A stretch of DNA of 64,000 nucleotides from Methanobrevibacter sp. Lineage in GTDB: Archaea; Methanobacteriota; Methanobacteria; Methanobacteriales; Methanobacteriaceae. The DNA lies in contig NZ_JAUNXR010000004.1 of the NCBI RefSeq assembly GCF_030539665.1, positions 101,088-165,087 of the forward strand, read 5' to 3'. A program made the position numbers and the translations under genes. The notes beneath the pieces were generated by a model. That model ran no database searches and had not been told where the DNA came from. It saw only the letters and a program-made list of their open reading frames with translations. Of this stretch, positions 16,603-54,714 are shown piece after piece. The first letter of the stretch is position 1; each line of letters begins with the position of its first letter.

Positions 16603-17307
16603 ATGATTTGTCCAGAATGTGGTTTTGAAAATAAGAAAAATGCAAAATTTTGCAGTAAATGTGGTACAAAATTAAAAAATGAGGTTTCACGACCTGTAAA
16701 TTCTGTAAATTCTGATAGTGACGATAAATCAAAATTAATAATAGCCGTTACAATTGTTATTGTTGTAGCTATTGCATTATTTACTTGCTATAGTTTAGGA
16801 GTATTCGGTGGAGGGGAAACCTATGACAGTTCCTCTGCCGATGCTACAAAGGCAGAAGACAGCGGGGTTTCACAAGTATCATTATCAGCATTTCCAGTCT
16901 CTGAAGCTCCATTTTTAGCTAGTGAAATTTCTAAAACAGGTAGTGCAGATTCAGTCAACTTTAAAGGAGTAACATTAACCAAATCCCAGGTTGCATATAT
17001 TCTAACAAAATCCATTGCAATGATTGGCAGTGGAGATTCTCACGGAACTATAAATGTGGGAAGTTATTCCTATGCCGGCCATCCATCTGGAGCAGACAGA
17101 TCACAGTCAATTTCAAGTGCACAATACATTGACATGTGCAATCGTTTCTCCTCATGGATAGAAAGAAATCATCAGGTTCCAAATTACGTTGGAATCAATA
17201 CAGGAGGAGTTCCTGACATTTCTCCTACAAAAATGATTAACATTTGTATTAACATTTTGGTTCAATACAAAAATACCGGAAGTTTGCCTAGTTCTGTTTC
17301 TGTTTAA
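16603..17307 (+). CDS. zinc-ribbon membrane protein with pseudomurein-binding repeats
   Basis: A 234-aa protein. Residues 1-25 form a zinc ribbon (CPECG, CSKCG), a membrane helix lies at about 45-67, and the outer part from about 118 looks like pseudomurein-binding repeats: TLTKSQVAYILTKSI, then AQYIDMCNRFSSWI with QVPNYVGI, and PTKMINICINILVQY with LPSSVSV. Such repeats hold proteins to the methanogen cell wall. The combination would link a cytosolic metal-binding ribbon to the wall outside; whether it senses or only anchors is unknown. It starts at ATG 16603, 16 bp after its paralog, behind a weak AGGTAA. Confidence 0.75.
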   Translation: MICPECGFENKKNAKFCSKCGTKLKNEVSRPVNSVNSDSDDKSKLIIAVTIVIVVAIALFTCYSLGVFGGGETYDSSSADATKAEDSGVSQVSLSAFPVSEAPFLASEISKTGSADSVNFKGVTLTKSQVAYILTKSIAMIGSGDSHGTINVGSYSYAGHPSGADRSQSISSAQYIDMCNRFSSWIERNHQVPNYVGINTGGVPDISPTKMINICINILVQYKNTGSLPSSVSV

Positions 17308-26486: not shown

Positions 26487-26786
26487 TCTATCACACACTT
26501 TTTATTTGGCTAATTATTATTATATTATTTATCAATTAAGTGTTTTTATTAGTTATATTGAATATACTTTTCAATTGCTCTTACAAAATAGGAATTAAAA
26601 GGTTCATATAAAATTATTTTATAAAGTATTTAAATTATTAATTTATTTTTTAATACATATTAATTAATTTTATTTTAATTTTAATATTATCAATAAATTA
26701 TTTTATATTAAAACCGTAAGAATAATTTATTATAAAATTTATAAATTAGTATATTATTAGATTTATTTAGTATAATGGGCGATAGT
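26487..26786. other. AT-rich intergenic region between divergent genes
   Basis: No gene seen. It is very AT-rich with long A/T runs and contains the promoters of the HD gene (minus) and of the restriction-modification genes (plus). A TATATTATT stretch at about 26749-26757 is a weak TATA candidate for the methyltransferase gene. Confidence 0.35.
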
Positions 26787-27845
26787 ATGAAAGGAGCATC
26801 TATGTTTTCTAGTGCAGGAATTGCGGAAACTTATTTCAAGGAAGCGGGTATTGATATCTGTGTTGCTAATGAGTTAATTCCTAAACGTGCTAAATTTTAT
26901 CAGGAAATGTATCCTGATTCTAATATGATTGTTGGAGATATAAGAGAAAGAGAGATAAAAGATGAATTTATAGAATCTATTGATGATGATGTAAAATTTT
27001 TAATAGCAACACCCCCATGCCAAGGTTTAAGTACATTAGGTATGAATAAACATTTGGATCAAATGCAATCCGATCCTAGGAATTATTTGGTTTTTGATAT
27101 TTTGGATGTAATCGATAAGAAAGATTTTGATTATATTTTAATAGAGAATGTTTCTAGATTTTTGACAATGTATTTTCCATATAAAGATTCATTTTATAAA
27201 TTAGAAGAAATATTAAAAGATTTGTATTCTGATAAGTATAATGTTGAAGCAGAGTTATTAAATGCGAAAGATTATGGTATTCCTCAAAGTAGGCCAAGAG
27301 CTATTATTAAAATGTTTAAAAAGGGTAAAAAGTGGGATTGGCCTGAAACTCAGAGTGAAATAACTTTAAAAGAAGCTATTGGCGATTTGCCAAGTTTAGA
27401 ATCTGAAGAAATATCCTCATTAAAACATCATTATGCAAGAAAACATACAGAAAATCATATTAATTGGATGAAGCATACGCCAACAGGACATTCCGCTCAT
27501 GAAAATAAAGAACATTTTCCAGTTAAAAAAAATGGGGAAAAGGTAAAGGGATTTAAATCTACTTACAAAAGAATGAGGTGGGATGCACCAGCACCTGCAG
27601 TTACTATGAGAAGTGATGCAATATCTTCTCAAGAAAATGTTCATCCGGGTCGTAAGTTGTCGGATGGGACTTATTCTGATGCAAGAGTGTTAACTCTTCG
27701 AGAATTATTCATTGTTTCTTCTTTACCTGAGGACTGGAATATTCCAGAATGGACTACTGATACATTTATGAGACAAATAATTGGTGAGGGTGTTCCTCCA
27801 GAATTATCATATAAAATTGTTAAAGGAATTGATCAAAATGATTAA
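26787..27845 (+). CDS. C5-cytosine DNA methyltransferase, first of a tandem pair
   Basis: A 352-aa enzyme transferring methyl from SAM to C5 of cytosine in a DNA site. Seen: motif I MFSSAGIAETYF, motif IV TPPCQGLS with catalytic Cys at about residue 78, motif VI IENV, motif VIII PQSRPRAI, and motifs IX-X with RVLTLRELFIVSSLP and GEGVPPELSY. The target-recognition region is about residues 208-290. DNA for about residues 4-198 appears identical to that of the next gene, while the recognition region differs. I use ATG at 26787 by alignment with the second copy; ATG at 26775 is possible. Its end overlaps the next start by 8 bp. AT-rich base use, and the island-like set of three genes, suggest horizontal transfer. 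Confidence 0.93.
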   Translation: MKGASMFSSAGIAETYFKEAGIDICVANELIPKRAKFYQEMYPDSNMIVGDIREREIKDEFIESIDDDVKFLIATPPCQGLSTLGMNKHLDQMQSDPRNYLVFDILDVIDKKDFDYILIENVSRFLTMYFPYKDSFYKLEEILKDLYSDKYNVEAELLNAKDYGIPQSRPRAIIKMFKKGKKWDWPETQSEITLKEAIGDLPSLESEEISSLKHHYARKHTENHINWMKHTPTGHSAHENKEHFPVKKNGEKVKGFKSTYKRMRWDAPAPAVTMRSDAISSQENVHPGRKLSDGTYSDARVLTLRELFIVSSLPEDWNIPEWTTDTFMRQIIGEGVPPELSYKIVKGIDQND

Positions 27846-28436
27846 AGGTGCATCTATGTTTTCTAGTGCAGGAATTGCGGAAACTTATTTCAAGGAAGCG
27901 GGTATTGATATCTGTGTTGCTAATGAGTTAATTCCTAAACGTGCTAAATTTTATCAGGAAATGTATCCTGATTCTAATATGATTGTTGGAGATATAAGAG
28001 AAAGAGAGATAAAAGATGAATTTATAGAATCTATTGATGATGATGTAAAATTTTTAATAGCAACACCCCCATGCCAAGGTTTAAGTACATTAGGTATGAA
28101 TAAACATTTGGATCAAATGCAATCCGATCCTAGGAATTATTTGGTTTTTGATATTTTGGATGTAATCGATAAGAAAGATTTTGATTATATTTTAATAGAG
28201 AATGTTTCTAGATTTTTGACAATGTATTTTCCATATAAAGATTCATTTTATAAATTAGAAGAAATATTAAAAGATTTGTATTCTGATAAGTATAATGTTG
28301 AAGCAGAGTTATTAAATGCGAAAGATTATGGTATTCCTCAAAGTAGGCCAAGAGCTATTATTAAAATGTTTAAAAAGGGTAAAAAGTGGGATTGGCCTGA
28401 AACTCAGAGTGAAATAACTTTAAAAGAAGCTATTGG
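26796..28436 (+). repeat. 587-bp identical direct repeat in the two methyltransferase genes
   Basis: Bases 26796-27382 and 27850-28436 (offset 1054) appear identical by eye. They encode the N-terminal catalytic halves. Identity then breaks at the recognition regions and reappears in short blocks (for example around 27573-27597 and 27647-27682). This pattern indicates recent duplication followed by exchange of the recognition region, or ongoing gene conversion. Confidence 0.9.
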
Positions 28437-28908
28437 GGATTTGCCAAGTTTAGAATCTGGCGAGTCTTCTTCTTTAAAATTCCATAATGCTAAAACTCAC
28501 AACGAAAGGGAAATTGAAGCTATGAAACATACTCCTGAGGGATGTAGCGCAATTAAAAATGAGATTTATTATCCTAAAAAAAAGGATGGTAGTAGAATTA
28601 AGGGTTTTCATAATACTTACAAAAGAATGAGGTGGGATGCACCAGCACCCGCAAGAACTATGAACAATGGAAATATAGGTTCGCACAATAATGTTCATCC
28701 TGGTCGTAAGTTGTCGGATGGGACTTATTCTGATGCACGGGTGTTAACTCTTCGGGAATTATTCATTGTTTCTTCTTTACCAGAAGAATGGAATGTTCCT
28801 GAATGGGCTACTGATAATTTCATAAGACAAATGGTTGGTGAAGCAATTCCTCCGAAACTATCTTTCCAAATTGTTAATTTAATGGAAAAGGAGTTTAATA
28901 ATGATTGA
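27838..28908 (+). CDS. C5-cytosine DNA methyltransferase, second of a tandem pair
   Basis: A 356-aa enzyme with the same catalytic motifs as its neighbour (PPCQGLS with Cys at about 79, IENV, PQSRPRAI, GEAIPPKLSF). The recognition region (about 210-292) is different: it has NAKTHNEREIEAMKHTPEG and IYYPKKKDGSRIKGF in place of the neighbour's HYARKHTENHINWMKHT and HFPVKKNGEKVKGF. I use ATG at 27838, which overlaps the previous stop as ATGATTAA, with AAAGGA upstream; an earlier start at 27781 would run deep into the first gene. Two C5 enzymes with different recognition regions next to one nuclease is the arrangement used for asymmetric sites, where each enzyme modifies one strand. Confidence 0.93.
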   Translation: MIKGASMFSSAGIAETYFKEAGIDICVANELIPKRAKFYQEMYPDSNMIVGDIREREIKDEFIESIDDDVKFLIATPPCQGLSTLGMNKHLDQMQSDPRNYLVFDILDVIDKKDFDYILIENVSRFLTMYFPYKDSFYKLEEILKDLYSDKYNVEAELLNAKDYGIPQSRPRAIIKMFKKGKKWDWPETQSEITLKEAIGDLPSLESGESSSLKFHNAKTHNEREIEAMKHTPEGCSAIKNEIYYPKKKDGSRIKGFHNTYKRMRWDAPAPARTMNNGNIGSHNNVHPGRKLSDGTYSDARVLTLRELFIVSSLPEEWNVPEWATDNFIRQMVGEAIPPKLSFQIVNLMEKEFNND

Positions 28909-30376
28909 ATTAAATAGAACAAAAGAGAATAAATGGATATTGCAAAAAAATATTAGTTCTGGTAAATTATTTGAAACTTTTTTAGAAGCCATTGATTCTC
29001 AAAATAATTCTACAGATAAAAATAATTTAAAAGATTACTTATCCAAAAAAGATGTTTATAAAGGTAGAAGTGAGGAGGGAAGTTCAAATACTATGGGGGT
29101 ACGTTTAAGTCAAGCTTGCTTTTATATGTTTGGTTATAAGAAATTTAATAAATTTTTTCCTTCTCCAATGACAAAATTATTTTTGGGTTCTAATAATGAT
29201 ATAAAACATTCTGAGAATATGTTGGTGAATTTGTTTTCAATGCAATTCCCTAGTCCTTACAGTAATACTTCTTCAAATTTTGAGATATATATTGGAAGAT
29301 TATTTGTTCAATTGCTTTTAGATAAGCGATTAGATGAAAAACTTTATATTGATGAATGTATTTATTTTTTAATGTTTTTAGAGAACATTAATGAAGAATA
29401 TTATTCAGAGTTAGTTGATAGTATATTGGAATATAGAAGTTTAAGTTATGATGAAAAATGGAATCTTTTTAAAGAAGTTCCTAATTATAATGAAGTTTTT
29501 GCAAATGCAACTCATGAAATGAATTACTATTTTATAAAAATTTTTCGTGAATTCGGAGTTTTTGATGTAATAGGAGATGCGTCCCATAATGATGGAAAAA
29601 TTTTTGAATTTATTCATGGGAATTATAGTGCTATTCGTAAAGATGCTTATGCTCCTAGAAAAAAATATTCGGGTTATATTAAACTAAATGAAAATATTAA
29701 AAATCAAGCTATTATATTAATTAAGGAGAACCCATTATTTGAAAGAGTGTCTACGCAGGATACTTATTTGTCTAAAGATGAGTGGATAAGGGAATTATAT
29801 GAATTTGCTCCATTAAAATATATTGAAACCATAATGGAAAGAAACGATGATAATATTGAAGTCATTGAAAATATAAAGTCAATGGTATATCATTCTAAAT
29901 ACGGATCACGTGATGGAAAATCATTTGAAAATAGTTTATTGCCTATTTTTGAAATGTTTCGGGAGAATAGAAGTGTAACACTTATTAGTGGTTCTGGAGA
30001 TACTGATTTGTTATGTGTTATGGATAATAAAGATGATGAATTATACAAAATAAATGTTGATGCTAAAACTTCTAGAACATCAACTAATTCAATAACATCT
30101 ACACGTATTCGAGATCATCTAGATAAAAATGGTTCCGAATATTGTATTATTGTCTCTCCTAGATTTGCTAAGGGAGTTAAAAGGGATATAAAAGATTTTA
30201 ATATTGTGGTTGTTGAAGCTGAAACTTTAGCTCAATATTGTTTAAATTCATGTTTGTCATCAGAAGATAAATTGGCTGATTTTTCAATGATAAATGATTT
30301 AATCAAATCTAATATGGGGAATGATATTACTGTTCCTCTACAAGAGTTAATTGATAAAGAGTTTAATATGGCTTAA
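28901..30376 (+). CDS. candidate type II restriction endonuclease
   Basis: A 491-aa protein of no family I can name. Near the C-terminus is a PD-(D/E)xK-like core: LISGSGDTDLLCV (about 363-375), a hairpin with DNKDDELY, and YKINVDAKTSR, giving D-x(n)-D-x-K. Ahead of it lies SRDGKSFENSLLPIFEMF, a helix common before such cores, and YCIIVSPRF follows. The N-terminal 330 residues are mostly helical and could hold recognition functions. ATG at 28901 overlaps the second methyltransferase stop as ATGATTGA and has AAAGGAG with good spacing, so the nuclease is coupled to its protecting enzymes. The call rests on context and the motif. Confidence 0.75.
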   Translation: MIELNRTKENKWILQKNISSGKLFETFLEAIDSQNNSTDKNNLKDYLSKKDVYKGRSEEGSSNTMGVRLSQACFYMFGYKKFNKFFPSPMTKLFLGSNNDIKHSENMLVNLFSMQFPSPYSNTSSNFEIYIGRLFVQLLLDKRLDEKLYIDECIYFLMFLENINEEYYSELVDSILEYRSLSYDEKWNLFKEVPNYNEVFANATHEMNYYFIKIFREFGVFDVIGDASHNDGKIFEFIHGNYSAIRKDAYAPRKKYSGYIKLNENIKNQAIILIKENPLFERVSTQDTYLSKDEWIRELYEFAPLKYIETIMERNDDNIEVIENIKSMVYHSKYGSRDGKSFENSLLPIFEMFRENRSVTLISGSGDTDLLCVMDNKDDELYKINVDAKTSRTSTNSITSTRIRDHLDKNGSEYCIIVSPRFAKGVKRDIKDFNIVVVEAETLAQYCLNSCLSSEDKLADFSMINDLIKSNMGNDITVPLQELIDKEFNMA

Positions 30377-42807: not shown

Positions 42808-45800
42808 TTGAAAAGTAAATGGTTGTTGCTCCCGCTAATTGTTCTGGTTATTTTTTGTTCTGTTTCAGCAGTTAGTGCTATGGAGCATGATGTAAATTCG
42901 AGTTATGAGATTCAAAATCATAATTTGACTTCTGATTCTAATGTGGGTGACTCAGATGATCAATATGATTTTTTAACGGTCAAACCTGTGAATTTTGTGG
43001 CTCCAAGTATTGAGAAATATTATAAAAATGGTACAAGCTTTGATGCGATTTTAACAGATTATAAGGGCAATCCTATTTCAAAACAACCAGTAATTTTCAC
43101 TGTAAAGGGCGTTAGTTACGTAAAAATTACTAATAATGGTGGAATAGCTTCACTGCCTATTAATTTGGTTCAGGGAACATATTCAATAACTGCATTATAT
43201 AATGGAACTGAAAACTATAATTCTGCAGTTATTAATTCTAAAATTATAGTTTTACCTACAGTTATAGGAGAAGATCTGGTCAAGTACTATAAGAATGGTA
43301 CTCCTTATTCTGTTAAGGTTATTGACAGCAAAGGTAATCCTTTGGTTAATTCTAAGGTGGCTTTCACTATCAAAAGTAAAACTTATACTTTGTTAAGTGA
43401 TTCTGATGGTATTGCCACATTGCCTATCAATCTTGCGGTTGGGAATTATGAAATTGTTGCTAAAAATTTGGCAGATAACACTTATCGCAAGGACAGTATA
43501 ACCGTAATTCCTAATGTCATTGGTGGAAATCTGGTCAAGTACTATAAGAATGGTACTCCTTATTCTGTTAAGGTTATTGACAGCAAAGGTAATCCTTTGG
43601 TTAATTCTAAGGTGGCTTTCACTGTCAAAAGTAAAACTTATACTTTGTTAAGTGATTCTGATGGTATTGCAAGTCTGCCGATTAATTTAAATATTGGCAC
43701 TTATTCCATCATCTCTAAAAATTTAGCTGACAATACATTCCGTCAAGATACAATTTATGTTATTCCAAATATTGTAACTGCAGATCTTGTTAAAGGATAT
43801 GGTGATGACAAGAATTTTGAGGCTAAAATCATTGATAGCGAAGGCAATCCTGTTTCTGGTGCTAAAGTTCGTTTTACAGTAGCAAACAAGGATTATAACA
43901 GAATTACTAATTCTGAAGGTATCGCTTCATTGTATATTTCATTTAATCCTGGAACTTATAAAATAAAAACAACAAATTTGGACAATGGTCAATCATGCAA
44001 TAACAATTTGAAAATTTTATCAAGACCTGATTCAAATATCTCAGTTTTAAATACGGTTATTGATGACAATTCAGGCAATTCCCTTAAAATAGTTTTATCT
44101 AATGTTTTGGGAAACAAACTCCCTAACAGGAATGTTGTTTTGGTCGTGGATGGGAAATCTTATAATGCCGTATCTGACAATAAGGGTGTTGTTACTTTCA
44201 ATCCTAGATTAAATGCGGGTAATTATAGTGCTTTATATATTTACTTAGGAAATAACTACAATGGGGAAACATCTATTTATTCCAACATAACAGTTTTAAA
44301 AGGAAAAACAACAACTTTGGAGGTTTCAACTCCTATTGTTGTTAGGGGGGAATCATTGGATGTTATTGTAAATGATGTTGATGGCAATATTTTGCCAAAT
44401 GTCCACATATCATTTAATGTATTGAATAAAAATTATACGGTTATTTCTAATGAAGAAGGTATTGCTAGTTTACCTATTAATTTAAATCAAGGGGTTGTTC
44501 CTGTTTCATATGCTGTTGCTGAGCAGGGGTATAGTCCTGTAACAGGTTTGGTTAACGTAACTGTCGTATCCGATAATCCTAATGTTAAATTTGAAAATGA
44601 TGCCAACTGTTATATTAAAGGTCAGAAATTCAGCGCTAAGCTTTTAGTGGATAATGTTTATTTGGCAAATCAAGAAGTATCAATTTCAGTCAATAATAAA
44701 AATTATGATCTTGTCAGCAATGAAAAAGGAATTGTTTCTTTTGTAATCGATGAGGAACCAGGAACATATGATATAACTTGCACTTATGATGGAAATTCAA
44801 TATTGGATGCTGTAAAAACCACATTTTATATAATTGTATTGGATTCAATGGACACATCATTAAGATATGTTGGTGAAAAACAATTTTCAGTAGAGGATGG
44901 AGGCAATTTTTCTGTTAGATTAGTCGGTTCCAATAACATTCCAATCGGGAATCAAAATATTAGCTTTAAATTAAAAAGCATAAGTTACTATGGAACAACA
45001 GATGAAAATGGGATTGCTTCATTACCTATTCATTTAAGCAAAGGCAACTATGAAATTTTCTATAAGTTTGAAGGAAATGGTCAATTGTTAGGCAGTTCAG
45101 GATCTCAAAAATTCTCTGTGGAATCAAAATTTTATAAAAGAAATGGGTACATGTTTATATGGAGAGACGAGGATGCTGATTTCAAGGCTCTTGCAAAACA
45201 GGGAACTACTGATGTGTTTGTTCATTGCAAGAACATAATACAATATGGTGAGGAAAATGTTTTGAAATGGATTAGAAATGCTAATTCATATGGTATCAAT
45301 GTATATTTATGGGTGCCTATATTCCATAACAATGTACAATTTATTCCACCAATTAATGAGGATGGTACTCAAAATCGTGAGATTGTAAATCAGAGACTTA
45401 ATGAGGCCAAATATTATGCAACCCTTCCGGGATTAAGTGGAATTCTTATAGATTTCATCAGGTTCCCTGGAACTGCTCACTACTATCAGGATTCTGCCAG
45501 CATCATTAGTAATGTTGTAAAGGATTATGCAGACACAGTACGCAGTGCAAATCCTGATTTACTAATGCTGTCTACTATCATTCCTAGGGAAAGGAATACA
45601 GTATATGATCATGCTCAGGATATTCACGCTATAGCAAAGTGTGTTGATGTCATAGTTCCATTGATTTACAAATCAGCATTTACAGAAAAGGTATTATGGA
45701 TTTCAAATTTAGCCAAATGGTGTTATAATAATGCTGAAGGAACTCCACTATGGGTTGCTTTATTGGGTTATAAGGCCGATGCTATTCAAGAACCGATTTC

Positions 45801-45912
45801 TCTTTCAGAGATTAACAGGGATATTAAAATTACCTTAAAACAACACATTGATGGAATTCAAATATTTAGATGGGGTGCAACACCTCACCCTAACTTCAAT
45901 GAGCTTTATTAA
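42808..45912 (+). CDS. secreted Ig-repeat protein with C-terminal glycosidase-like domain (paralog 1)
   Basis: A 1034-aa protein. A signal peptide (about 1-24, ending AVSA) is followed by eight or so Ig-like repeats of about 85 residues, each with KYYKNGT, a GNPL turn, VKxKTYT and IATLPINL. From about residue 774 to the end lies a TIM-barrel-like domain: DADFKALAKQGTTDVFVH, GINVYLWVPIF, GILIDFIRFPG (Asp at about 882), DVIVPLIYKSAF and IQIFRWG. These resemble the GHL10/DUF4015 type of putative glycoside hydrolase. No membrane anchor or wall-binding repeat is present, so retention at the wall may rely on the stalk. TTG start with GGAGAG upstream. The substrate is unknown; pseudomurein glycan is one possibility. 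Confidence 0.85.
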   Translation: MKSKWLLLPLIVLVIFCSVSAVSAMEHDVNSSYEIQNHNLTSDSNVGDSDDQYDFLTVKPVNFVAPSIEKYYKNGTSFDAILTDYKGNPISKQPVIFTVKGVSYVKITNNGGIASLPINLVQGTYSITALYNGTENYNSAVINSKIIVLPTVIGEDLVKYYKNGTPYSVKVIDSKGNPLVNSKVAFTIKSKTYTLLSDSDGIATLPINLAVGNYEIVAKNLADNTYRKDSITVIPNVIGGNLVKYYKNGTPYSVKVIDSKGNPLVNSKVAFTVKSKTYTLLSDSDGIASLPINLNIGTYSIISKNLADNTFRQDTIYVIPNIVTADLVKGYGDDKNFEAKIIDSEGNPVSGAKVRFTVANKDYNRITNSEGIASLYISFNPGTYKIKTTNLDNGQSCNNNLKILSRPDSNISVLNTVIDDNSGNSLKIVLSNVLGNKLPNRNVVLVVDGKSYNAVSDNKGVVTFNPRLNAGNYSALYIYLGNNYNGETSIYSNITVLKGKTTTLEVSTPIVVRGESLDVIVNDVDGNILPNVHISFNVLNKNYTVISNEEGIASLPINLNQGVVPVSYAVAEQGYSPVTGLVNVTVVSDNPNVKFENDANCYIKGQKFSAKLLVDNVYLANQEVSISVNNKNYDLVSNEKGIVSFVIDEEPGTYDITCTYDGNSILDAVKTTFYIIVLDSMDTSLRYVGEKQFSVEDGGNFSVRLVGSNNIPIGNQNISFKLKSISYYGTTDENGIASLPIHLSKGNYEIFYKFEGNGQLLGSSGSQKFSVESKFYKRNGYMFIWRDEDADFKALAKQGTTDVFVHCKNIIQYGEENVLKWIRNANSYGINVYLWVPIFHNNVQFIPPINEDGTQNREIVNQRLNEAKYYATLPGLSGILIDFIRFPGTAHYYQDSASIISNVVKDYADTVRSANPDLLMLSTIIPRERNTVYDHAQDIHAIAKCVDVIVPLIYKSAFTEKVLWISNLAKWCYNNAEGTPLWVALLGYKADAIQEPISLSEINRDIKITLKQHIDGIQIFRWGATPHPNFNELY
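43276..43670 (+). repeat. two near-identical 140-bp repeat blocks, 255-bp period
   Basis: Bases 43276-43415 recur at 43531-43670 with one visible difference (an ATC to GTC codon change). The period equals 85 codons, one Ig-like unit. Confidence 0.85.
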
Positions 45913-45950: not shown

Positions 45951-46080
45951 CTTTTTTTAAAAATTTTTCACTAATCGTATATAGATTAATTATTTAAGTA
46001 CGTATTAACATAATTATAAGGTGTGAATATTTTTTTTTTATTCATATGTTCTATAAATTTTTATTGTGGAGAAGATATTT

Positions 46081-49000
46081 TTGAAAAAACAATTTTTATT
46101 CATTCTATTGATGGTGGGACTTATTTTTAGTTCAATTTCAGCCATTAATGCAATGGATAATGCAGATATTAATTCAAATAATGTTCTAACGGATGATGAT
46201 GTTATTATAGCTTCAAATTCTGATGATATTAGTGTAATTAATGCTAATGATGGATGTGTATCACTTGTGGCTCCGGATATTGTGAAATATTATAAAAACG
46301 ACACACACTGTGATGCAACATTAAACGACAAAAATGGTAATCCGCTTTCAAATCAAAGTTTAACTTTCACAGTCAAAGGCGTAAGCTATGTAAAAGTCAC
46401 TAATGAAAACGGGGTTGCTACATTGCCTATTAACTTAAGTCCGGGCAGTTATTTAATTTCCGTTTCATATTTTGGCGATTCATTATTTACAGTCGATTCA
46501 AATGTAGTGGTTTTGCCTACTGTTGTTGGTGGCGATCTTACCAAGTATTATAACAACGGTTCAGGATATTCAGTCAAGTTGGTTAATCCGGACGGCACTC
46601 CATTGGCCAATTCCAGGGTTGATATTACTGTTAAGGGCAAGACATATTCCAGAACCACCAATAGTGATGGGGTAGCTACCTTGCCGATTGGACTTAGTCA
46701 AGGCCAATATACTGTCAAGGCTCAAAACATGGCAGATAAAACATATAGGGAAGATACAATAACTGTTTTGCCTACTGTTGTTGGCGGGGACGTTAAGGGA
46801 TATTACAAAAATGTCCAGTATTATGTTACATTGGTAAAGAACGATGGCACTCCTTTAAGTTTCAGCAAGCTTTCATATAATATTGCTGGAAAGACTTATT
46901 CCTGGACTAGTGATAGTCAGGGAAAGGCTAAGTTAGTAATTAACCTTTCACCAGGTACTTATACAATAACAACAACCAATTTGGCAGACAAGACTTCCAG
47001 ACAGGATACTATAACTGTTTTGCCTACTATTATTGGTGGAGATGTTACTAAACGCTATAACAACGGTACAGGATATACAGTTAAATTAATAAGAGGAGAT
47101 GGCAGTCCATTAGCTAATTCCAAAGTTGCAATTACAGTTAAAGGAAAGACATACACTCAAACTACCAATAGTAACGGAGTGGCTACATTAGGAATTGGCC
47201 TTAGTCAGGGAACATATACTATCACTGCTCAAAACGTAGCGGACAAAACTTCAGTTTCAAACAAGATTGTAGTTTTACCGAATATTGAATGTGTTTCAGG
47301 TACTAAATACTATAAGAGCGGCAATCCATACACAGTAAAGTTGTATGCATTCAACGGCAAAACATTGGCAAATGCTAAAGTGCAATTTGTTGTTAATGGG
47401 AAAACATATACAAGTACTTCGGATAGTAATGGATTAGCCAAACTTAATCTCGGTACTTTTGGTAAAGGTACATATACCATAAAAGCAACCAATATGGCAG
47501 ATAAGACTTATATAACCACTACAGTTCAAGTATTGCCTAGTGTATCTGGTTCTAATGTGGATAAGCTATATTTGGATTATCAAAAACCATATGTTGTAAC
47601 TGTAGTTGATGATACAGGAAAACCATTGCAAGGTGCTCAACTTAAATGTACCATCTCGTCAAAGAATTATTATATAACAACAGATGCAAATGGTGTAGCT
47701 AAGTTGGAAATCAACCTTTATCCAGGTTCATACACTGTCAAAACAGTTTATATGAAAACTGGTGAATCATGTTCAAATTCTATCAAAGTTACTGGAAATG
47801 TTAGGACCAATATATATGATGTTACTACAAATATCAAAGAAAATTCAGGTAATACATTCCAAGTACGTTTAACCAACAATTTGAAACATGAGATAGCTAA
47901 AGTTCCGGTGATTATGGTAATCGATGGAAAATCTTATACTTCTTACACAAACAAGCAAGGTATTGCTAGTTTCAATCCAGATGTTGGCGTTGGAAACTAT
48001 GATGTGACTTATGTCTTTTTAGGTGACAATTATATGTTTGGAGCTTATAAAGACTCTAAAATCAGCATATTAAATGGAAAATTAGTTCAAATAGAAGTTA
48101 AAGATGATATTTTACATCAAGGAGATAACTTTGAAGTTACAGTTAAGGATACAAATGGAAAACCTTTAGCTAACCTTAGCGGATTCTTCACTGTGAAAGG
48201 CAATAACTATAATGTGTTGACTGATGATGATGGAGTAGCAAAATTGAAGATGAATCTCATTCCATCCAATGTTCTTGTTACATACACAGTAAATGAAAAT
48301 GGATACAGTTTTGTTAAACAATCTAGCTATGTAAAAATAATAGATTCAGATAAGGTCAAATTCAATAGCAATATTGTAAATTATGGAAAAGGTCAAAAAT
48401 TGCAAGTTAATCTTTTAATTGGAGACATTCCATTTTCAAACCAGCATGTAATTCTTAAAATAAATAATAAGGATTATGATGTAGTTACTGATAAGGACGG
48501 TATAGCTAGTTTGGAAATCAATTTGAATCCTGGAAAATATGATGTTATTTGTACATATGATGGTAATTCAAAAATACAGGGTGTTTCAAAAACAATTTCA
48601 ATTAACGTATTGAACAAAATGGAAACCAAGTTTGAATACCTTGGAAGCACAACATTGTATAAGGAAAATAAAAATAAGGGATGTACTGTAAAATTAACAG
48701 GATCAAATGGACTTCCTATTGCTGGTGAAACTGTTAAATTTACAATTAAAGGATCCGGCTTACCTGTTAGTTATAATAAAATTACAGACGAGAATGGGAT
48801 AGCTACACTGCCTATTAACTTAAATCAAGGTACCTATACCTTCAGTTATAGTTATGGGGGCAATTCTCAGTTCTCTGGAACTTCAGGATCTAAATCAGTT
48901 AAGATTGGAACTAAATTATATAATAGGAATAGTTATTATGTGATTTCCATTTCAGCTAACATGAATTTTGCAAACCTTAAAAAATTGGGAACTACCGATT

Positions 49001-49695
49001 TGTTCATCCATTCCTATAATATTGTCACATATGGTGAGCAGAAATTTATGGATTGGGTAAAAACCGTTAATTCCTATGGCATTTACGTGCACCTTTGGGT
49101 TTCAATCTATCAAAGTTCAGGACCTAACTATTCTCCTGTTTTGTCAAATGGACAACCTGATTATACCATCATTAATCAGGCTCTTGCAGAAGCCAAATAT
49201 TATTCAACTTTGGATGTGGATGGTATTTCTCTTGATTTTGTAAGATTCCCAAGCAATGCTTACAAATATTCCATAGCTACTTCACTTATCAATAATTTGG
49301 TAAAGGATTATTCCAATATTGTACGTAGCTATAATCCTGATTTGATACTATCATTTGCTTGCATCGCTAGAGCAGAAAAAACTGCATACTACTTTGGTCA
49401 GGATGTTCCTACAATTTCAAAATATGTTGATGTTGTTATTCCTTTAATTTATAAGTCAAGCTTTGTAGGAAATAAAAACGCCATAATTTATAATTATGCA
49501 AAATGGGCTCATGATCATAGTAGTGTTCCTATTTGGGCATCTTTATTAGGATATAGGGCAGATGCGCTTCAAATTCCGATACCATTGTCAGAACTTTACA
49601 GTGACTGTAGAATAGTTATCAGTGCAGGTGCTTCAGGCATATCTATTTATAAATGGGGGAAGTCATATTCTCCTAACTTTGGAACATTGTTTTAA
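46081..49695 (+). CDS. secreted Ig-repeat protein with C-terminal glycosidase-like domain (paralog 2)
   Basis: A 1204-aa paralog of the previous gene. Signal peptide at about 1-24 (ending INA before MDN), about ten Ig-like repeats with GGDLTKYYNNG and KGKTYSRTT style motifs, and the TIM-barrel-like domain from about 943: KKLGTTDLFIHSYN, GIYVHLWVSIYQ, DGISLDFVRFPS (Asp at about 1052), DVVIPLIYKSSF and ISIYKWG at the end. I use TTG at 46081, matching the TTG and spacing of its two paralogs, with GGAGAAG upstream; an in-frame GTG at 46066 would include the SD in the coding region. Function is inferred as for paralog 1. Confidence 0.85.
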   Translation: MKKQFLFILLMVGLIFSSISAINAMDNADINSNNVLTDDDVIIASNSDDISVINANDGCVSLVAPDIVKYYKNDTHCDATLNDKNGNPLSNQSLTFTVKGVSYVKVTNENGVATLPINLSPGSYLISVSYFGDSLFTVDSNVVVLPTVVGGDLTKYYNNGSGYSVKLVNPDGTPLANSRVDITVKGKTYSRTTNSDGVATLPIGLSQGQYTVKAQNMADKTYREDTITVLPTVVGGDVKGYYKNVQYYVTLVKNDGTPLSFSKLSYNIAGKTYSWTSDSQGKAKLVINLSPGTYTITTTNLADKTSRQDTITVLPTIIGGDVTKRYNNGTGYTVKLIRGDGSPLANSKVAITVKGKTYTQTTNSNGVATLGIGLSQGTYTITAQNVADKTSVSNKIVVLPNIECVSGTKYYKSGNPYTVKLYAFNGKTLANAKVQFVVNGKTYTSTSDSNGLAKLNLGTFGKGTYTIKATNMADKTYITTTVQVLPSVSGSNVDKLYLDYQKPYVVTVVDDTGKPLQGAQLKCTISSKNYYITTDANGVAKLEINLYPGSYTVKTVYMKTGESCSNSIKVTGNVRTNIYDVTTNIKENSGNTFQVRLTNNLKHEIAKVPVIMVIDGKSYTSYTNKQGIASFNPDVGVGNYDVTYVFLGDNYMFGAYKDSKISILNGKLVQIEVKDDILHQGDNFEVTVKDTNGKPLANLSGFFTVKGNNYNVLTDDDGVAKLKMNLIPSNVLVTYTVNENGYSFVKQSSYVKIIDSDKVKFNSNIVNYGKGQKLQVNLLIGDIPFSNQHVILKINNKDYDVVTDKDGIASLEINLNPGKYDVICTYDGNSKIQGVSKTISINVLNKMETKFEYLGSTTLYKENKNKGCTVKLTGSNGLPIAGETVKFTIKGSGLPVSYNKITDENGIATLPINLNQGTYTFSYSYGGNSQFSGTSGSKSVKIGTKLYNRNSYYVISISANMNFANLKKLGTTDLFIHSYNIVTYGEQKFMDWVKTVNSYGIYVHLWVSIYQSSGPNYSPVLSNGQPDYTIINQALAEAKYYSTLDVDGISLDFVRFPSNAYKYSIATSLINNLVKDYSNIVRSYNPDLILSFACIARAEKTAYYFGQDVPTISKYVDVVIPLIYKSSFVGNKNAIIYNYAKWAHDHSSVPIWASLLGYRADALQIPIPLSELYSDCRIVISAGASGISIYKWGKSYSPNFGTLF

Positions 49696-49731: not shown

Positions 49732-50178
49732 CTTTCTTTTTTATGTTTTTGACTTATTCAATTGTTTTTGTAAATTTATGTTATTTTAATTAAAATTAGT
49801 TTTTTACTTCAATACTAATTGATATATTGTTATTTTTATTTTTATTAGAACTAATGTATGGATTTTTCTTTATAATCATTGTCATTATTGGTTTTTAGCT
49901 TATATAATGATTTATTGTTGAGTTTTATAAAATAATTGTTTTTATTATTTAATTTCTTTTATACTGATGTTAATTTACTTATTTTTTTATTATACTCAAA
50001 AACAATCTTTTATATTTATTTTTATCCGCAATACTATTCGTGTTTCTTTTTTAAAGACCACACAATCGATGCTATAAATAAATACATTTATATAATAACA
50101 TCACCCAAATTAATATTGTATGAATATTTTTAATGATATTCATAGTTGTTAAAATTTAAGTATAGGAGGCAAATAGTT
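49732..50178. other. AT-rich intergenic region before paralog 3
   Basis: No convincing gene. A 65-codon frame at 49936-50133 is very Phe/Tyr/Ile-rich and looks like a by-product of base composition. A TATA candidate TTTATATA is at 50087-50094, about 85 nt before the TTG start, and GGAGG at 50165-50169 is the SD. Confidence 0.5.
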
Positions 50179-53100
50179 TTGAAGAAACGTTTTTTATTCA
50201 TTTTATTAATAGTTGGAATAATGTTATGTTCATTTTCCGCAGTTAGTGCAATGGATAATAATGATTTAAATTCTACAGAATTTATTTCACATGATACAAA
50301 TGCTATAGATTTAGTTAGTGTATCAGATACTTCAGATGTTAACAACGAAAATAATGGGGATGTTGCTTTAAATGCAAATGACAATGCAAAAAGTTCCAGT
50401 TCTCAAGAGAGAAATAGGACCGTAACCCTTTCTGCTCCAGATTTAGATAAATATTATAAAAATGGAACAGATTTTGAGGCTATTTTAACTGATAGTGAGG
50501 GTAATCCAATTGAAAATCAGGATATTGTCATATGTATAAAAGGTGAAAAGTTCCCTAATGGCATATTTTATACAAAAACCACTAATGATTTAGGTAATGT
50601 TAAATTGCCAATTAATTTGCTTCAAGGGCAATATGCCATTACTGCAACCTACAAAGGTAATGAAATTTATGATTCTGCAGTAAGCGAAGCAAAAGTTAAT
50701 GTCATGCCTAACGTGATTGGTGGAGATCTTACTAAGTATTATAAAAATGGAACTCAATATTATGTTACATTGGTTGGTGGAGTTAATAGTGCTCCTTTAG
50801 CAAATGCTAAAGTTGCTATTACTGTAAAAGGTAAGACTTATACTTTCACTACTGATGAGTCAGGTGTAGCATGTTTACCTATTAACCTTAGTCCAGGATC
50901 TTATACCATTGTAGCTCAGAACCTAGTTGATAAGACTTCAAGGTCTGATATAGTTAAAGTATTACCTACCATGTCTACTGGTGATTTGACTAAAGTATAT
51001 TTAGACAATCATCACTTCAATGCAATTGTTGTAAAAGATGATGGTAGTCCATCTGTAGGAAGTAAGGTAAGTTTCACCATTAAAGGTAAGACTTATACTA
51101 TGACTACTGATGCAAATGGTATAGCTACTTTACCTATTAACCTTAGTCCTGGAACATATAGTATATCTACACGTAATCTACTTGATGGTGTTACTTATAC
51201 TAATACCGTTAAAGTATTAACTGGGGTAAAAACCAGTATTAAGGTAACTGATAGCACAATTGTTGAAAATGCTGGCAATACTGTTAATGCCACTTTATTC
51301 AATGAATTAGGTTATACAGTACCTAATATGGCAATTACTTTGGTTATAAATAATGCAAAATATACTGCTACTACCAATAGTGATGGTGTTGCAATTTTCA
51401 CTCCTACTGTTAGTGCAGGAAACTATAAAGTTACTTACAGCTTTGCTGCCACCGGTGCGTATAAGGCATCATCAGCAAACAGCGTTATTAATGTATTAAA
51501 TGGTAAGCAAGTAACTTTCGATGTTGATGAAACACTCATCCAAAAAGGATCTTCTTTCAATGTCCTAGTTAAGGATATGGAAGGTACTCCTGTATCAGAT
51601 GTTAATTTATACTTTACACTTAATGGTGTAAATTACAATTCAAAAACAAATGATGAAGGTATAGCTAGCATAGTCATTAACGAAAATCCAGGTATAGTAA
51701 TAATATCCTATGCAGTTAATGAAACTGGCTATTCAAACGCAAAGGGCAGTACTGAATTGATGGTTATTTCATCTAACAAGACTGCTTTATCAACAAACAC
51801 AACTTCAGTAATTAGAGACAACAATGAGAAATTTTACGTCAAACTTTCAGTGGATGACATTCCATTGGCAAATGAGAACATCGTAATATCAGTCAATGGG
51901 GCAAACTACAATGTCATTACAAACGCTGGGGGTTGGGCAAGTTTACCGATTAATTTGTTACCTGGTCAATACAACATGATTTGTACATTTGCAGGAAATT
52001 CCAAATTTGAAGGATCTTCCAAAACCTTTGTACTTGAAGTAAAAAACATCGATTCAAGCAATCTCGAGTATTTGGGTGGTGCTGAATATGTTAAGGGAAC
52101 CAAATCATTTGAGGTCATGTTAACCGATTCAAACAACAATCCTTTGACCAACATGCCTATTTTGATTACCGTCTCTTGCAAGTCATTCACCAAAACCTAT
52201 ACTATGTATACAGATGCTGACGGTATCGCTTCATTGCCTATCAACTTAAACAATGGAGAATACACAATCGGATACAAGTTCGAAGGAAATTCCAAACACG
52301 CTCCAGTACAAGGATCACAGGACATTCGTGTAATTCCTGCAGGTTCTTCCTACGGATTCGGATACTGGTTATTTGGAGCAGATATGGAGAAAGCTGATTT
52401 AGCAAGTCTTTCAAGTCAAGGAACTACTCAAATATTCCTTAATTCCTACGCATTTACCGTTCACGGAGAAAAAAAGGTAAGTGAATGGATTAAAAAAGCT
52501 AATTCACATGGAATTAAAGTACATATATGGATGGAAACATTCTATGACGGTGCATTTATATCACCACTTTTATCTGACGGTACACCAAATTATGCATATT
52601 TCAATCAAAAAATCAATGAAGCTAAATATTATGCAGGCGTATCTGGTGTAAGTGGTATTCATCTTGATTATATTAGATTCCCTGGAAATGCATACAAATA
52701 TACCAATGGGGTCTCAGCAATCAACGAATTTGTACAAATGTGTTGTAATGCTGTTCGTACAGTCAATCCAAATGTTATAATGTCTGCAGCTGTAATGCCT
52801 GAAAAATCAGCTAATGCATATTACTATGGTCAGGACATTGCCTTTATGGGAAAACATCTCGATGTTATCATTCCTATGATCTATAAAGGTAATTATGGAG
52901 CATCTACTGCTTGGATTACCAGCACAACCAAATGGTTTGTTGAAAATTCACAAGGAGCTCAAATCTGGTCAGGATTACAAGGATACAAATCCGATAGTAA
53001 TGTGGTTCCATTGTCAGCTTCAGAAATCACTGGTGATGCTAGTGCTGCGCTTAACGGTGGAGCTCAAGGTGCTATCGTATTCAGATGGGGAGTTACAAAC

Positions 53101-54714
53101 TTTGCAGATTTCAAATCTGCAAACAAAGCTCCAGTTCCTGATGTTCCAGTTGGAACTACATTCACCAAAGCTGAAATAGAACAAGGTGCAGCATCTTTGA
53201 AAAGCTATATAGAATCTAAAGGTGTTTTGCCGGAATCAATAAATATTGGAAATAAAGTATGTACCGTTCCACAGTTATTATACTTGATGGCACAGTACAC
53301 TGCAAATTATAATAGTCAGAATCAATTTACTGTAGTTAAAGTAGGCAATCCTGATACTTCAACTGGTGATGGGATGCGTAAGAAATTCATGAAAGCTGAT
53401 TTCGTCACCACTGCAAAAGATATTGTTGACTATGTCAATCAATATGAAAAAGCACCAAGTTTCATGTCTACTTCCATAGGTAAAATCAAGTATTCTGCAT
53501 TGGTATATTCATTTGCAAGAATTGTAAGCTTTACTGCAACAAATAAAGCTTTGCCTGCTTATGTTTATGTCACCAACATTGTGGACGACTATTCAATGAC
53601 TGTTGTAATGAAACCTTCAGTTTCAACCAAAAACTACAAATATATCAATTATGAAACTACTTGGTTGAGTTACTGTCCAAAATGTGGTTATTATGCAACT
53701 TTATTAAACAATCCAAAAGGCACTCCTGAAGGTGAAATTACCTGTGCTCAATGTGATTCCGATTACTGTGGAGTTACTGGTAAAAATAAGATTGCATCTT
53801 CTAATGTTTATTTAACAAAGCTTAGTGATAGTGTTCCTGCAGATCCGGCAGGTCCAGGTAATGTAGTTACATTTAATGATATTTTAGATGCAGCTATTCG
53901 TGTAAAAGGTTATTTAGAAGCAAATGGTGAAATGCCTTTGACAGTTAATGTAGGTGGAAATAAATTATCCACAGCACAATATTTATATTTAGTTTCAAAA
54001 GCTATTGCAAATACCGCTAACTCTAACTTTAGCGACATTGAAATTAAAGATGTTAATGATGCTGAAAATCCAAATGGAGATACCATCTCATCAACCTTAA
54101 ACAAAACCCAATATACAGATTTAGCAAACAGAGTTGCCAAATTCATTTTAGAATATGGACAAGCTCCTAATTATGCTAGTTCTGATGTTGGAAAAATATG
54201 TTACGATGAATTGGTTGATGCGTTCTCCAGAATCATGGCATTTTATTCAAATAACAATAAGGTAATGCCGTCCACTGTAGCTATTAAATGGGGAGGAAGC
54301 AGTTCCTCAACCATATCTGCATTGGCAGAATCATTGACTAAAGGTTTAACTTCAACCACTGCTAAAGCTACTGCGTTATTCAACTATGTAAGGGATTACA
54401 TTACTTATGAATATTATGAAAACACCAGAAAAGGTGCTGAAGGAACTTTAGTATCCAAAGGTGGTAACTGTTGTGATCAATCACAATTATTAGTGGCAAT
54501 GGCAAGATCTGTTGGTTTAACTGTCAGATTTGAACATGGTAAATGTTCATTCAGTTCAGGTTTATACACTGGACATGTATGGGTTCAATTCCAAATTGAT
54601 GGTAAATGGGTTAACGCTGATCCTACAAGTACAAGAAATTCACTTGGGGTCATTAACAACTGGAGAACCAGTAGTTACACTCATTTCGGATACTATGACG
54701 TTTTACCATTCTAA
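50179..54714 (+). CDS. secreted surface protein: Ig repeats, glycosidase-like domain, pseudomurein-binding repeats, transglutaminase/C71-like peptidase (paralog 3)
   Basis: A 1511-aa protein with four parts. Signal peptide at about 1-24; Ig-like repeats to about 715; a GHL10-like TIM-barrel domain at about 722-981 with GIHLDYIRFPG (Asp at about 830), DVIIPMIYKG and IVFRWG; then pseudomurein-binding repeats (about 992-1390) with LKSYIESKGVLPESINIG and RVKGYLEANGEMPLTVNVG style units, interrupted by a zinc-binding insert (YCPKCGYY, CAQCDSDYC) at about 1164-1200. The C-terminus has GGNCCDQSQ (Cys about 1431), TGHVWVQ (His about 1466) and NADPTS (Asp about 1481), a transglutaminase-type triad like that of pseudomurein endoisopeptidases (family C71). 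It probably binds and cuts the cell wall peptide; the glycosidase-like part might cut the glycan. TTG at 50179 follows GGAGG. Confidence 0.85.
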   Translation: MKKRFLFILLIVGIMLCSFSAVSAMDNNDLNSTEFISHDTNAIDLVSVSDTSDVNNENNGDVALNANDNAKSSSSQERNRTVTLSAPDLDKYYKNGTDFEAILTDSEGNPIENQDIVICIKGEKFPNGIFYTKTTNDLGNVKLPINLLQGQYAITATYKGNEIYDSAVSEAKVNVMPNVIGGDLTKYYKNGTQYYVTLVGGVNSAPLANAKVAITVKGKTYTFTTDESGVACLPINLSPGSYTIVAQNLVDKTSRSDIVKVLPTMSTGDLTKVYLDNHHFNAIVVKDDGSPSVGSKVSFTIKGKTYTMTTDANGIATLPINLSPGTYSISTRNLLDGVTYTNTVKVLTGVKTSIKVTDSTIVENAGNTVNATLFNELGYTVPNMAITLVINNAKYTATTNSDGVAIFTPTVSAGNYKVTYSFAATGAYKASSANSVINVLNGKQVTFDVDETLIQKGSSFNVLVKDMEGTPVSDVNLYFTLNGVNYNSKTNDEGIASIVINENPGIVIISYAVNETGYSNAKGSTELMVISSNKTALSTNTTSVIRDNNEKFYVKLSVDDIPLANENIVISVNGANYNVITNAGGWASLPINLLPGQYNMICTFAGNSKFEGSSKTFVLEVKNIDSSNLEYLGGAEYVKGTKSFEVMLTDSNNNPLTNMPILITVSCKSFTKTYTMYTDADGIASLPINLNNGEYTIGYKFEGNSKHAPVQGSQDIRVIPAGSSYGFGYWLFGADMEKADLASLSSQGTTQIFLNSYAFTVHGEKKVSEWIKKANSHGIKVHIWMETFYDGAFISPLLSDGTPNYAYFNQKINEAKYYAGVSGVSGIHLDYIRFPGNAYKYTNGVSAINEFVQMCCNAVRTVNPNVIMSAAVMPEKSANAYYYGQDIAFMGKHLDVIIPMIYKGNYGASTAWITSTTKWFVENSQGAQIWSGLQGYKSDSNVVPLSASEITGDASAALNGGAQGAIVFRWGVTNFADFKSANKAPVPDVPVGTTFTKAEIEQGAASLKSYIESKGVLPESINIGNKVCTVPQLLYLMAQYTANYNSQNQFTVVKVGNPDTSTGDGMRKKFMKADFVTTAKDIVDYVNQYEKAPSFMSTSIGKIKYSALVYSFARIVSFTATNKALPAYVYVTNIVDDYSMTVVMKPSVSTKNYKYINYETTWLSYCPKCGYYATLLNNPKGTPEGEITCAQCDSDYCGVTGKNKIASSNVYLTKLSDSVPADPAGPGNVVTFNDILDAAIRVKGYLEANGEMPLTVNVGGNKLSTAQYLYLVSKAIANTANSNFSDIEIKDVNDAENPNGDTISSTLNKTQYTDLANRVAKFILEYGQAPNYASSDVGKICYDELVDAFSRIMAFYSNNNKVMPSTVAIKWGGSSSSTISALAESLTKGLTSTTAKATALFNYVRDYITYEYYENTRKGAEGTLVSKGGNCCDQSQLLVAMARSVGLTVRFEHGKCSFSSGLYTGHVWVQFQIDGKWVNADPTSTRNSLGVINNWRTSSYTHFGYYDVLPF

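Follow-up and report, generated by a model that had tools for sequence, protein, structure and literature searches.

The locus and its predicted product

The stretch analysed here, referred to as the window, comprises 64,000 nucleotides of contig NZ_JAUNXR010000004.1 from Methanobrevibacter sp., and the subject of this report is one of its genes, which encodes a candidate pseudomurein-degrading surface protein. An open reading frame (ORF) spans 50146-54714, and the gene is taken to run from a TTG codon at 50179 to 54714, giving a product of 1511 amino acids. The spacing of an AGGAGG motif suits this TTG, and the residue numbers of an earlier note on this DNA, which are kept here, are therefore those of the ORF minus 11. 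The product is predicted to be a secreted, stalk-bearing methanogen protein in which Ig-like repeats are followed by a TIM barrel, pseudomurein-binding repeats (PMBR) and a C-terminal transglutaminase-fold domain (Table 1).

The earlier note had described the stalk as Ig-like and the PMBR as containing a zinc insert. Pfam recovers both kinds of repeat, the stalk as Big_1, MG4 and Big_3_5 and the PMBR (PF09373) with 101.8 bits over five stretches, above the cut-off. The CxxC...CxxC insert is likewise present, but it is not a defining part of the protein, since it is missing from 14 aligned relatives and was modelled with a predicted local distance difference test score (pLDDT) mostly below 50; its candidacy as the functional core was rejected. 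A further PMBR lies elsewhere in the window, at 17098-17196, within a small protein (16603-17307) that has N-terminal zinc-ribbon-like cysteines and one transmembrane-like segment.

Table 1. Features of the 1511-residue protein gene and of the two paralogues upstream of it (window coordinates).
Feature	Position	Strand	Evidence
Tandem paralogue 1, consisting of stalk and barrel, with Arg in place of the catalytic Glu	42808..45912	+	Pfam, alignment
Tandem paralogue 2, consisting of stalk and barrel, with Arg in place of the catalytic Glu	46066..49695	+	Pfam, alignment
Ribosome-binding site AGGAGG	50164..50169	+	Sequence
Gene, 1511-aa stalk-barrel-PMBR-transglutaminase protein	50179..54714	+	ORF, Pfam
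Hydrophobic N-terminal segment, signal-peptide-like (LKKRFLFILLIVGIMLCSFSAVSA)	50179..50250	+	Sequence inspection
Ig-like stalk repeats Big_1, MG4, Big_3_5	50413..52320	+	Pfam
DUF4015/GHL10-type TIM barrel, predicted glycan-cleaving	52342..53115	+	PF13200, AF2 model, Foldseek
Asp codon, D830 (ORF D841), strand 4 end, invariant	52666..52668	+	64/64 barrels; 47/47 alignment rows
Glu codon, E875 (ORF E886), in an MPE motif that follows strand 5, proposed as second catalytic acid	52801..52803	+	61/64 barrels
Pseudomurein-binding repeats, pair 1	53170..53535	+	Pfam, alignment
CxxC...CxxC insert, possible zinc site, not conserved	53674..53769 (residues 1166-1197)	+	Sequence, alignment, model
Pseudomurein-binding repeats, pair 2	53875..54246	+	Pfam, alignment
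Transglutaminase-fold domain, PeiW/PeiP-like	54304..54711	+	PF01841, PF12386; PDB matches
Catalytic Cys codon, C1431 (predicted)	54469..54471	+	Sequence, conservation
Catalytic His codon, H1466 (predicted)	54574..54576	+	Sequence, conservation
Triad Asp codon, D1481 (predicted)	54619..54621	+	Sequence, conservation

A TIM barrel with a conserved pair of acids

The barrel had been described as GHL10-like from its sequence, and in profile searches it matches DUF4015 (PF13200) with 35.7 bits against a cut-off of 27, whereas its match to GHL10 (PF02638) reaches 14.8 bits, under the cut-off of 27.9. An AlphaFold2 (AF2) model built from the window sequence and its relatives is a confident eight-stranded alpha/beta barrel (mean pLDDT 96.2, predicted template modelling score 0.93), for which the top Foldseek match in the PDB is Cwp19 of Clostridioides difficile (E 1e-10), followed by GH164, PgaB, GH53 and GH191. 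The strong fold match to Cwp19 suggests that the barrel works like a GHL10 enzyme, although by profile it stands outside that family. Membership in GH18 was also considered, as there are sequence matches to chitinases. The hallmark of GH18 chitinases is DxxDxDxE, with the catalytic Glu at strand 4; strand 4 of the barrel reads GIHLDYIRFPG, where the position of that Glu is non-acidic, and GH18 was rejected.

As in glycoside hydrolases generally, a conserved pair of carboxylates lies at the C-terminal strand ends. Asp830 is invariant among the 64 barrels aligned and is present in all 47 rows of a wider alignment that includes distant bacterial DUF4015 proteins, in which Arg833, Gln885 and Tyr902 are also retained, while Glu875 is found in 61 of the 64, the three exceptions being the two upstream paralogues, one of them counted twice. 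Together with Trp784, Arg833, Gln885 and Tyr902, both acids are kept in nearly all members other than the paralogues, including copies in Bacteroidales and in viruses. The glycosidase-like fold and conserved acids anticipated by the earlier note are thus found, with an enzyme that cleaves wall glycan as the best PDB match, and the barrel is proposed as a candidate pseudomurein glycan-cleaving enzyme in which Asp830 and Glu875 would be the catalytic acids.

A C-terminal domain resembling PeiW and PeiP

The C-terminal domain, previously assigned to the transglutaminase/C71 type, indeed matches both Transglut_core (PF01841, 72.3 bits) and Peptidase_C71 (PF12386, 26.7 bits against a cut-off of 22). 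Its closest PDB chains by sequence are PeiW (E 5e-6) and PeiP, and by fold PeiP comes first, with PeiW also among the top matches; the PMBR-transglutaminase region was modelled with a pLDDT of 77.8. PeiW and PeiP have been shown to cleave the Ala-epsilon-Lys bond (PMC4592898). The placement of the triad at C1431, H1466 and D1481 is borne out in sequence, as all three are conserved across the fused homologues, and in the HMMER alignment C1431 and H1466 align with the catalytic Cys and His of PeiW. D1481 and the nearby Asp of PeiW fall in different columns of that alignment, and their equivalence is therefore unproven.

Distribution among archaea

The barrel subfamily was detected in 134 of 152 Methanobacteria genomes (86 of the 91 of high quality) and in all 20 genera, and 145 of the 152 match the transglutaminase profile strongly, matches elsewhere being weak. 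No close form of the barrel was found in 80 genomes from other archaeal phyla, four of which gave a match, the best of 83 bits in a protein of 2707 residues. One of these four (G580, L183) has a G+C content of 0.60 near the locus and encodes a protein whose C-terminus appears membrane-spanning and whose barrel is diverged, containing DDSFRYP and LLPEKPE; LPEKPE and FRYG motifs are retained. This restriction of the barrel to the pseudomurein-walled Methanobacteria is an independent line that points to wall degradation. Sampling of 60 barrel loci, biased toward the best matches, gave 30 in which a single ORF encodes the barrel and, after it, PMBR and a transglutaminase domain. This fusion extends to f3 and f4, the families most distant within the class; at other loci (L069, L073) a PMBR-transglutaminase or transglutaminase gene adjoins the barrel gene.

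Copies in methanogen viruses

Matches to the PMBR-transglutaminase part among 50,697 GenBank phage records are confined to methanogen viruses, and tblastn of the barrel gave no match. Seven IMG/VR contigs (L174-L180) carry a close barrel (276-318 bits), and in six of them a C39- or C71-like peptidase is either part of the same protein or encoded beside it. Four (L175, L176, L177, L180) encode proteins with barrel, PMBR and cysteine peptidase; the peptidase end matches C39 models below the cut-off in L175, L176 and L180, and that of L177 is 84% identical to that of L175. The C39-like domain of L175 (5219-5728) also matches PDB 22oc, 'P210 WT' (E 1.6e-22), and L176 additionally matches phage endolysin families. 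L179 encodes a barrel joined in one protein to a domain with weak C71 similarity (PF12386, E 0.016), while the barrel gene of L178 adjoins a separate gene whose C-terminal sequence is similar and C71-like by eye, with no Pfam match; in L174 the barrel is accompanied by PMBR alone. As judged from the ORFs by eye, the barrel gene of L175 and of L177 lies downstream of large virion-like or tail genes and upstream of an integrase-like gene. The barrel tree, which like that of the transglutaminase domain was a quick one with only Shimodaira-Hasegawa-like approximate likelihood ratio support and was rooted on distant bacterial relatives, requires at least three captures by methanogen viruses; since viruses have no pseudomurein to build, this capture favours degradation.

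Loci in gut Bacteroidales

Seven loci (L099-L105) in metagenome-assembled genomes of gut Bacteroidales emerged from a scan of GTDB genomes, with full-length barrel matches of 183-270 bits, compared with at most 77 bits in other bacteria. Each of the seven has one PMBR-like/transglutaminase gene adjoining or near the barrel gene. The neighbourhoods are bacterial, with lipoprotein signals, BACON domains and a G+C content of 0.46-0.55 (0.34 in the window), and the possibility of misbinned archaeal contigs was rejected on the strength of the neighbour genes, the lipoprotein signals and this G+C content. The match of these proteins to the Pfam PMBR model is sub-threshold at best (21.7 against 24.9 bits), and their PMBR homology rests mainly on full-length alignment to the methanogen PMBR-transglutaminase region. 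In the trees, all ten Bacteroidales barrels form one clade inside Methanobacteriaceae, with starred support of 99-100, and the seven Bacteroidales transglutaminase domains form one clade inside Methanobacteria. The system is rare in the order, with one weak match besides the centre genome among 393 genomes.

Gene content varies among the Bacteroidales loci (L099-L105, L164, L168, L171 and L172). They include amino-sugar uptake genes, joined in the longer contigs by SusC/D and GH20, and the transfer of both domains into such surroundings is a further independent pointer to wall degradation. SusD was identified by Pfam in L168 (G158) and L171 (G156), a SusC-like TonB plug in L168 and L164 (G154), and a SusD-like lipoprotein by eye in L164; GH20 was confirmed in L168, L171 and L101. 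Neither SusC/D nor GH20 was found in the stretches read of L099, L100, L102 and L104. NCBIfam calls MurQ-like, NagK-like and NagP-like genes in L101 and a NagK-like gene in L100, and a MurQ-like/SIS-domain gene lies at 604-1449 of L101, 7136-7957 of L168 and 6998-7822 of L171. On the simplest reading of these sequences, gut methanogens were the source of the Bacteroidales locus, a candidate for pseudomurein utilisation.

Upstream paralogues and other features of the window

The genome has three barrels in total, those of the 50179 gene and of the two tandem paralogues directly upstream of it, which have neither PMBR nor a transglutaminase domain. The paralogue barrels score below the DUF4015 cut-off and, because they have lost the conserved Glu and a neighbouring conserved His, are read as probably inactive binding or decoy forms. 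Ig repeats also occur at 1825-7412, in two consecutive adhesin-like ORFs (the first ends at 4842 and the next starts at 4875) that could be one frameshifted gene. At 26775-30376, two near-identical tandem DNA cytosine-methyltransferase-like genes are followed by a gene of 491 amino acids, in a restriction-modification-like arrangement.

A putative two-activity pseudomurein lysin

Taken together, the protein is probably a secreted, wall-bound pseudomurein lysin of the methanogen itself, with two predicted activities. The computation shows its domains, fold and conserved residues, their distribution, the fusions and adjacencies, and the viral capture and bacterial transfer; we infer the catalysis, substrate, cleaved bond and physiological role of this lysin. 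The stalk would carry the protein outward and the PMBR would hold it on the sacculus, where the C-terminal Cys-His-Asp domain would act like PeiW and PeiP in opening peptide cross-links and the glycan strand would be cut by the TIM barrel, using Asp830 and Glu875. The normal job of such an enzyme is probably to open the wall for growth and for separation of daughter cells. Methanogen viruses took the barrel into what appear to be lysins, and gut Bacteroidales took barrel and peptidase, probably to break up methanogen walls; as the same parts recur in both, the pair looks like wall-dismantling machinery. The earlier note had put forward a glycosidase-like domain joined to a pseudomurein peptidase as a candidate for the missing glycan activity, and this proposal gains computational support from the fold, the two acids, the distribution and the viral and Bacteroidales copies. 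Whether the barrel is the founding member of a new family of enzymes that cleave pseudomurein glycan, the missing counterpart to the Pei peptidases, serving own-wall use, viral lysis and Bacteroidales feeding on methanogen walls, is an evenly balanced call.

Several observations weigh against the lysin. Of 12 distant bacterial DUF4015 proteins, all of which have Asp830, only 2 have Glu875; the Asp is therefore a feature of the superfamily and the Glu the mark of the clade. The PDB fold relatives of the barrel act on many glycans, no barrel was detected in 5 of the 91 high-quality Methanobacteria genomes, and many Methanobacteria barrels occur without PMBR and peptidase. Pseudomurein contains no N-acetylmuramic acid and no lactyl ether. 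The MurQ-like gene of the Bacteroidales is left unexplained by this chemistry and suits a murein sugar better than pseudomurein, so that the locus may also use murein, or the MurQ-like enzyme may have another role.

An unlikely alternative is that this is a wall-synthesis protein, in which the transglutaminase domain acts as a transpeptidase that cross-links pseudomurein and the barrel serves to trim or transfer glycan. In a pangenomic study, the exported transglutaminase orthogroup was put forward as the enzyme that cross-links pseudomurein (PMC11915815), and the near-ubiquity of transglutaminase domains in Methanobacteria would agree with this; however, the domain is closest in both sequence and fold to two enzymes that cut, and the same or similar modules are carried by viruses and Bacteroidales, which do not build pseudomurein. 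A cross-linking role is possible for some transglutaminase paralogues, but leaves the viral and bacterial carriage unexplained.

It is quite improbable that the barrel instead targets another glycan, such as the murein of neighbouring bacteria, the sugars of surface glycoproteins or gut mucin, with the PMBR merely anchoring the protein to its own wall. Such a target would accord with fold relatives that act on murein, poly-N-acetylglucosamine, mannan and galactan, with the MurQ-like, NagK-like and NagP-like genes together in one Bacteroidales locus, and with the barrels that lack PMBR, but not with a barrel that is near-universal in the pseudomurein-walled class and has no close form in other archaea, nor with viral barrels fused to PMBR and peptidase domains of the pseudomurein-lysin type, which fit the wall of the methanogen host itself. 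That the barrel is a non-catalytic carbohydrate-binding module beside a peptidase that alone is active is very hard to credit, for although the two paralogues that lost the Glu may be binding proteins, the six conserved residues named above are kept in nearly all other members, Bacteroidales and viral copies included.

The known pseudomurein lysins cut peptide. A glycan-cutting partner, if the lysin is real, would provide means of opening methanogen cells, of making protoplasts and of studying wall growth and division, and would be relevant to limiting rumen methane, while a bacterial locus for the use of methanogen walls would add a new trophic link to the gut. The hypothesis is directly testable with three independent sets of enzymes, from methanogens, viruses and bacteria.

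Comparison with known systems

In the literature searched, which left most subscription journals and bioRxiv outside, no published enzyme for the pseudomurein glycan was found, and no paper proposing the pair as a wall lysin, its viral versions or the Bacteroidales locus. PeiW and PeiP, of peptidase family C71 from Methanothermobacter viruses, share with the protein the order of PMBR and a transglutaminase-fold Cys-His-Asp domain, but have no barrel and no stalk, and the window domain scores higher as Transglut_core than as C71. PeiR, from the M. ruminantium provirus phi-mru, is a known lysin described with PMBR and a C39 peptidase and no barrel (PMC6189367). It likewise combines wall-binding repeats with a cysteine peptidase, and the four viral barrel-PMBR-cysteine peptidase proteins resemble PeiR plus a barrel.

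In M. smithii, Ig-like repeats, PMBR and a transglutaminase domain have been described in the adhesin-like proteins of Group III and of 'others', and for one adhesin-like protein a 'putative glycosyl hydrolase domain' is given (PMC11532034); that study treats these proteins as adhesins and proposes no wall-lytic pair. Cwp19 of C. difficile, the best structural match, has been reported as a GHL10 lytic transglycosylase of murein glycan (PMC6016235). It too is a secreted GHL10-type barrel with wall-binding repeats, but it has 12% identity, a murein substrate and no peptidase domain. In pseudomurein, talosaminuronic acid lacks a C6 hydroxyl, which would leave GlcNAc as the only place for a 1,6-anhydro product. 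DigH of Escherichia coli is a GHL10 member as well. This glycosyl hydrolase degrades denuded glycans (PMC12288456), and by description it is likened to the barrel in cutting peptide-free wall glycan and promoting daughter-cell separation, while differing in its murein substrate and single domain. The individual parts of the protein are already known separately.

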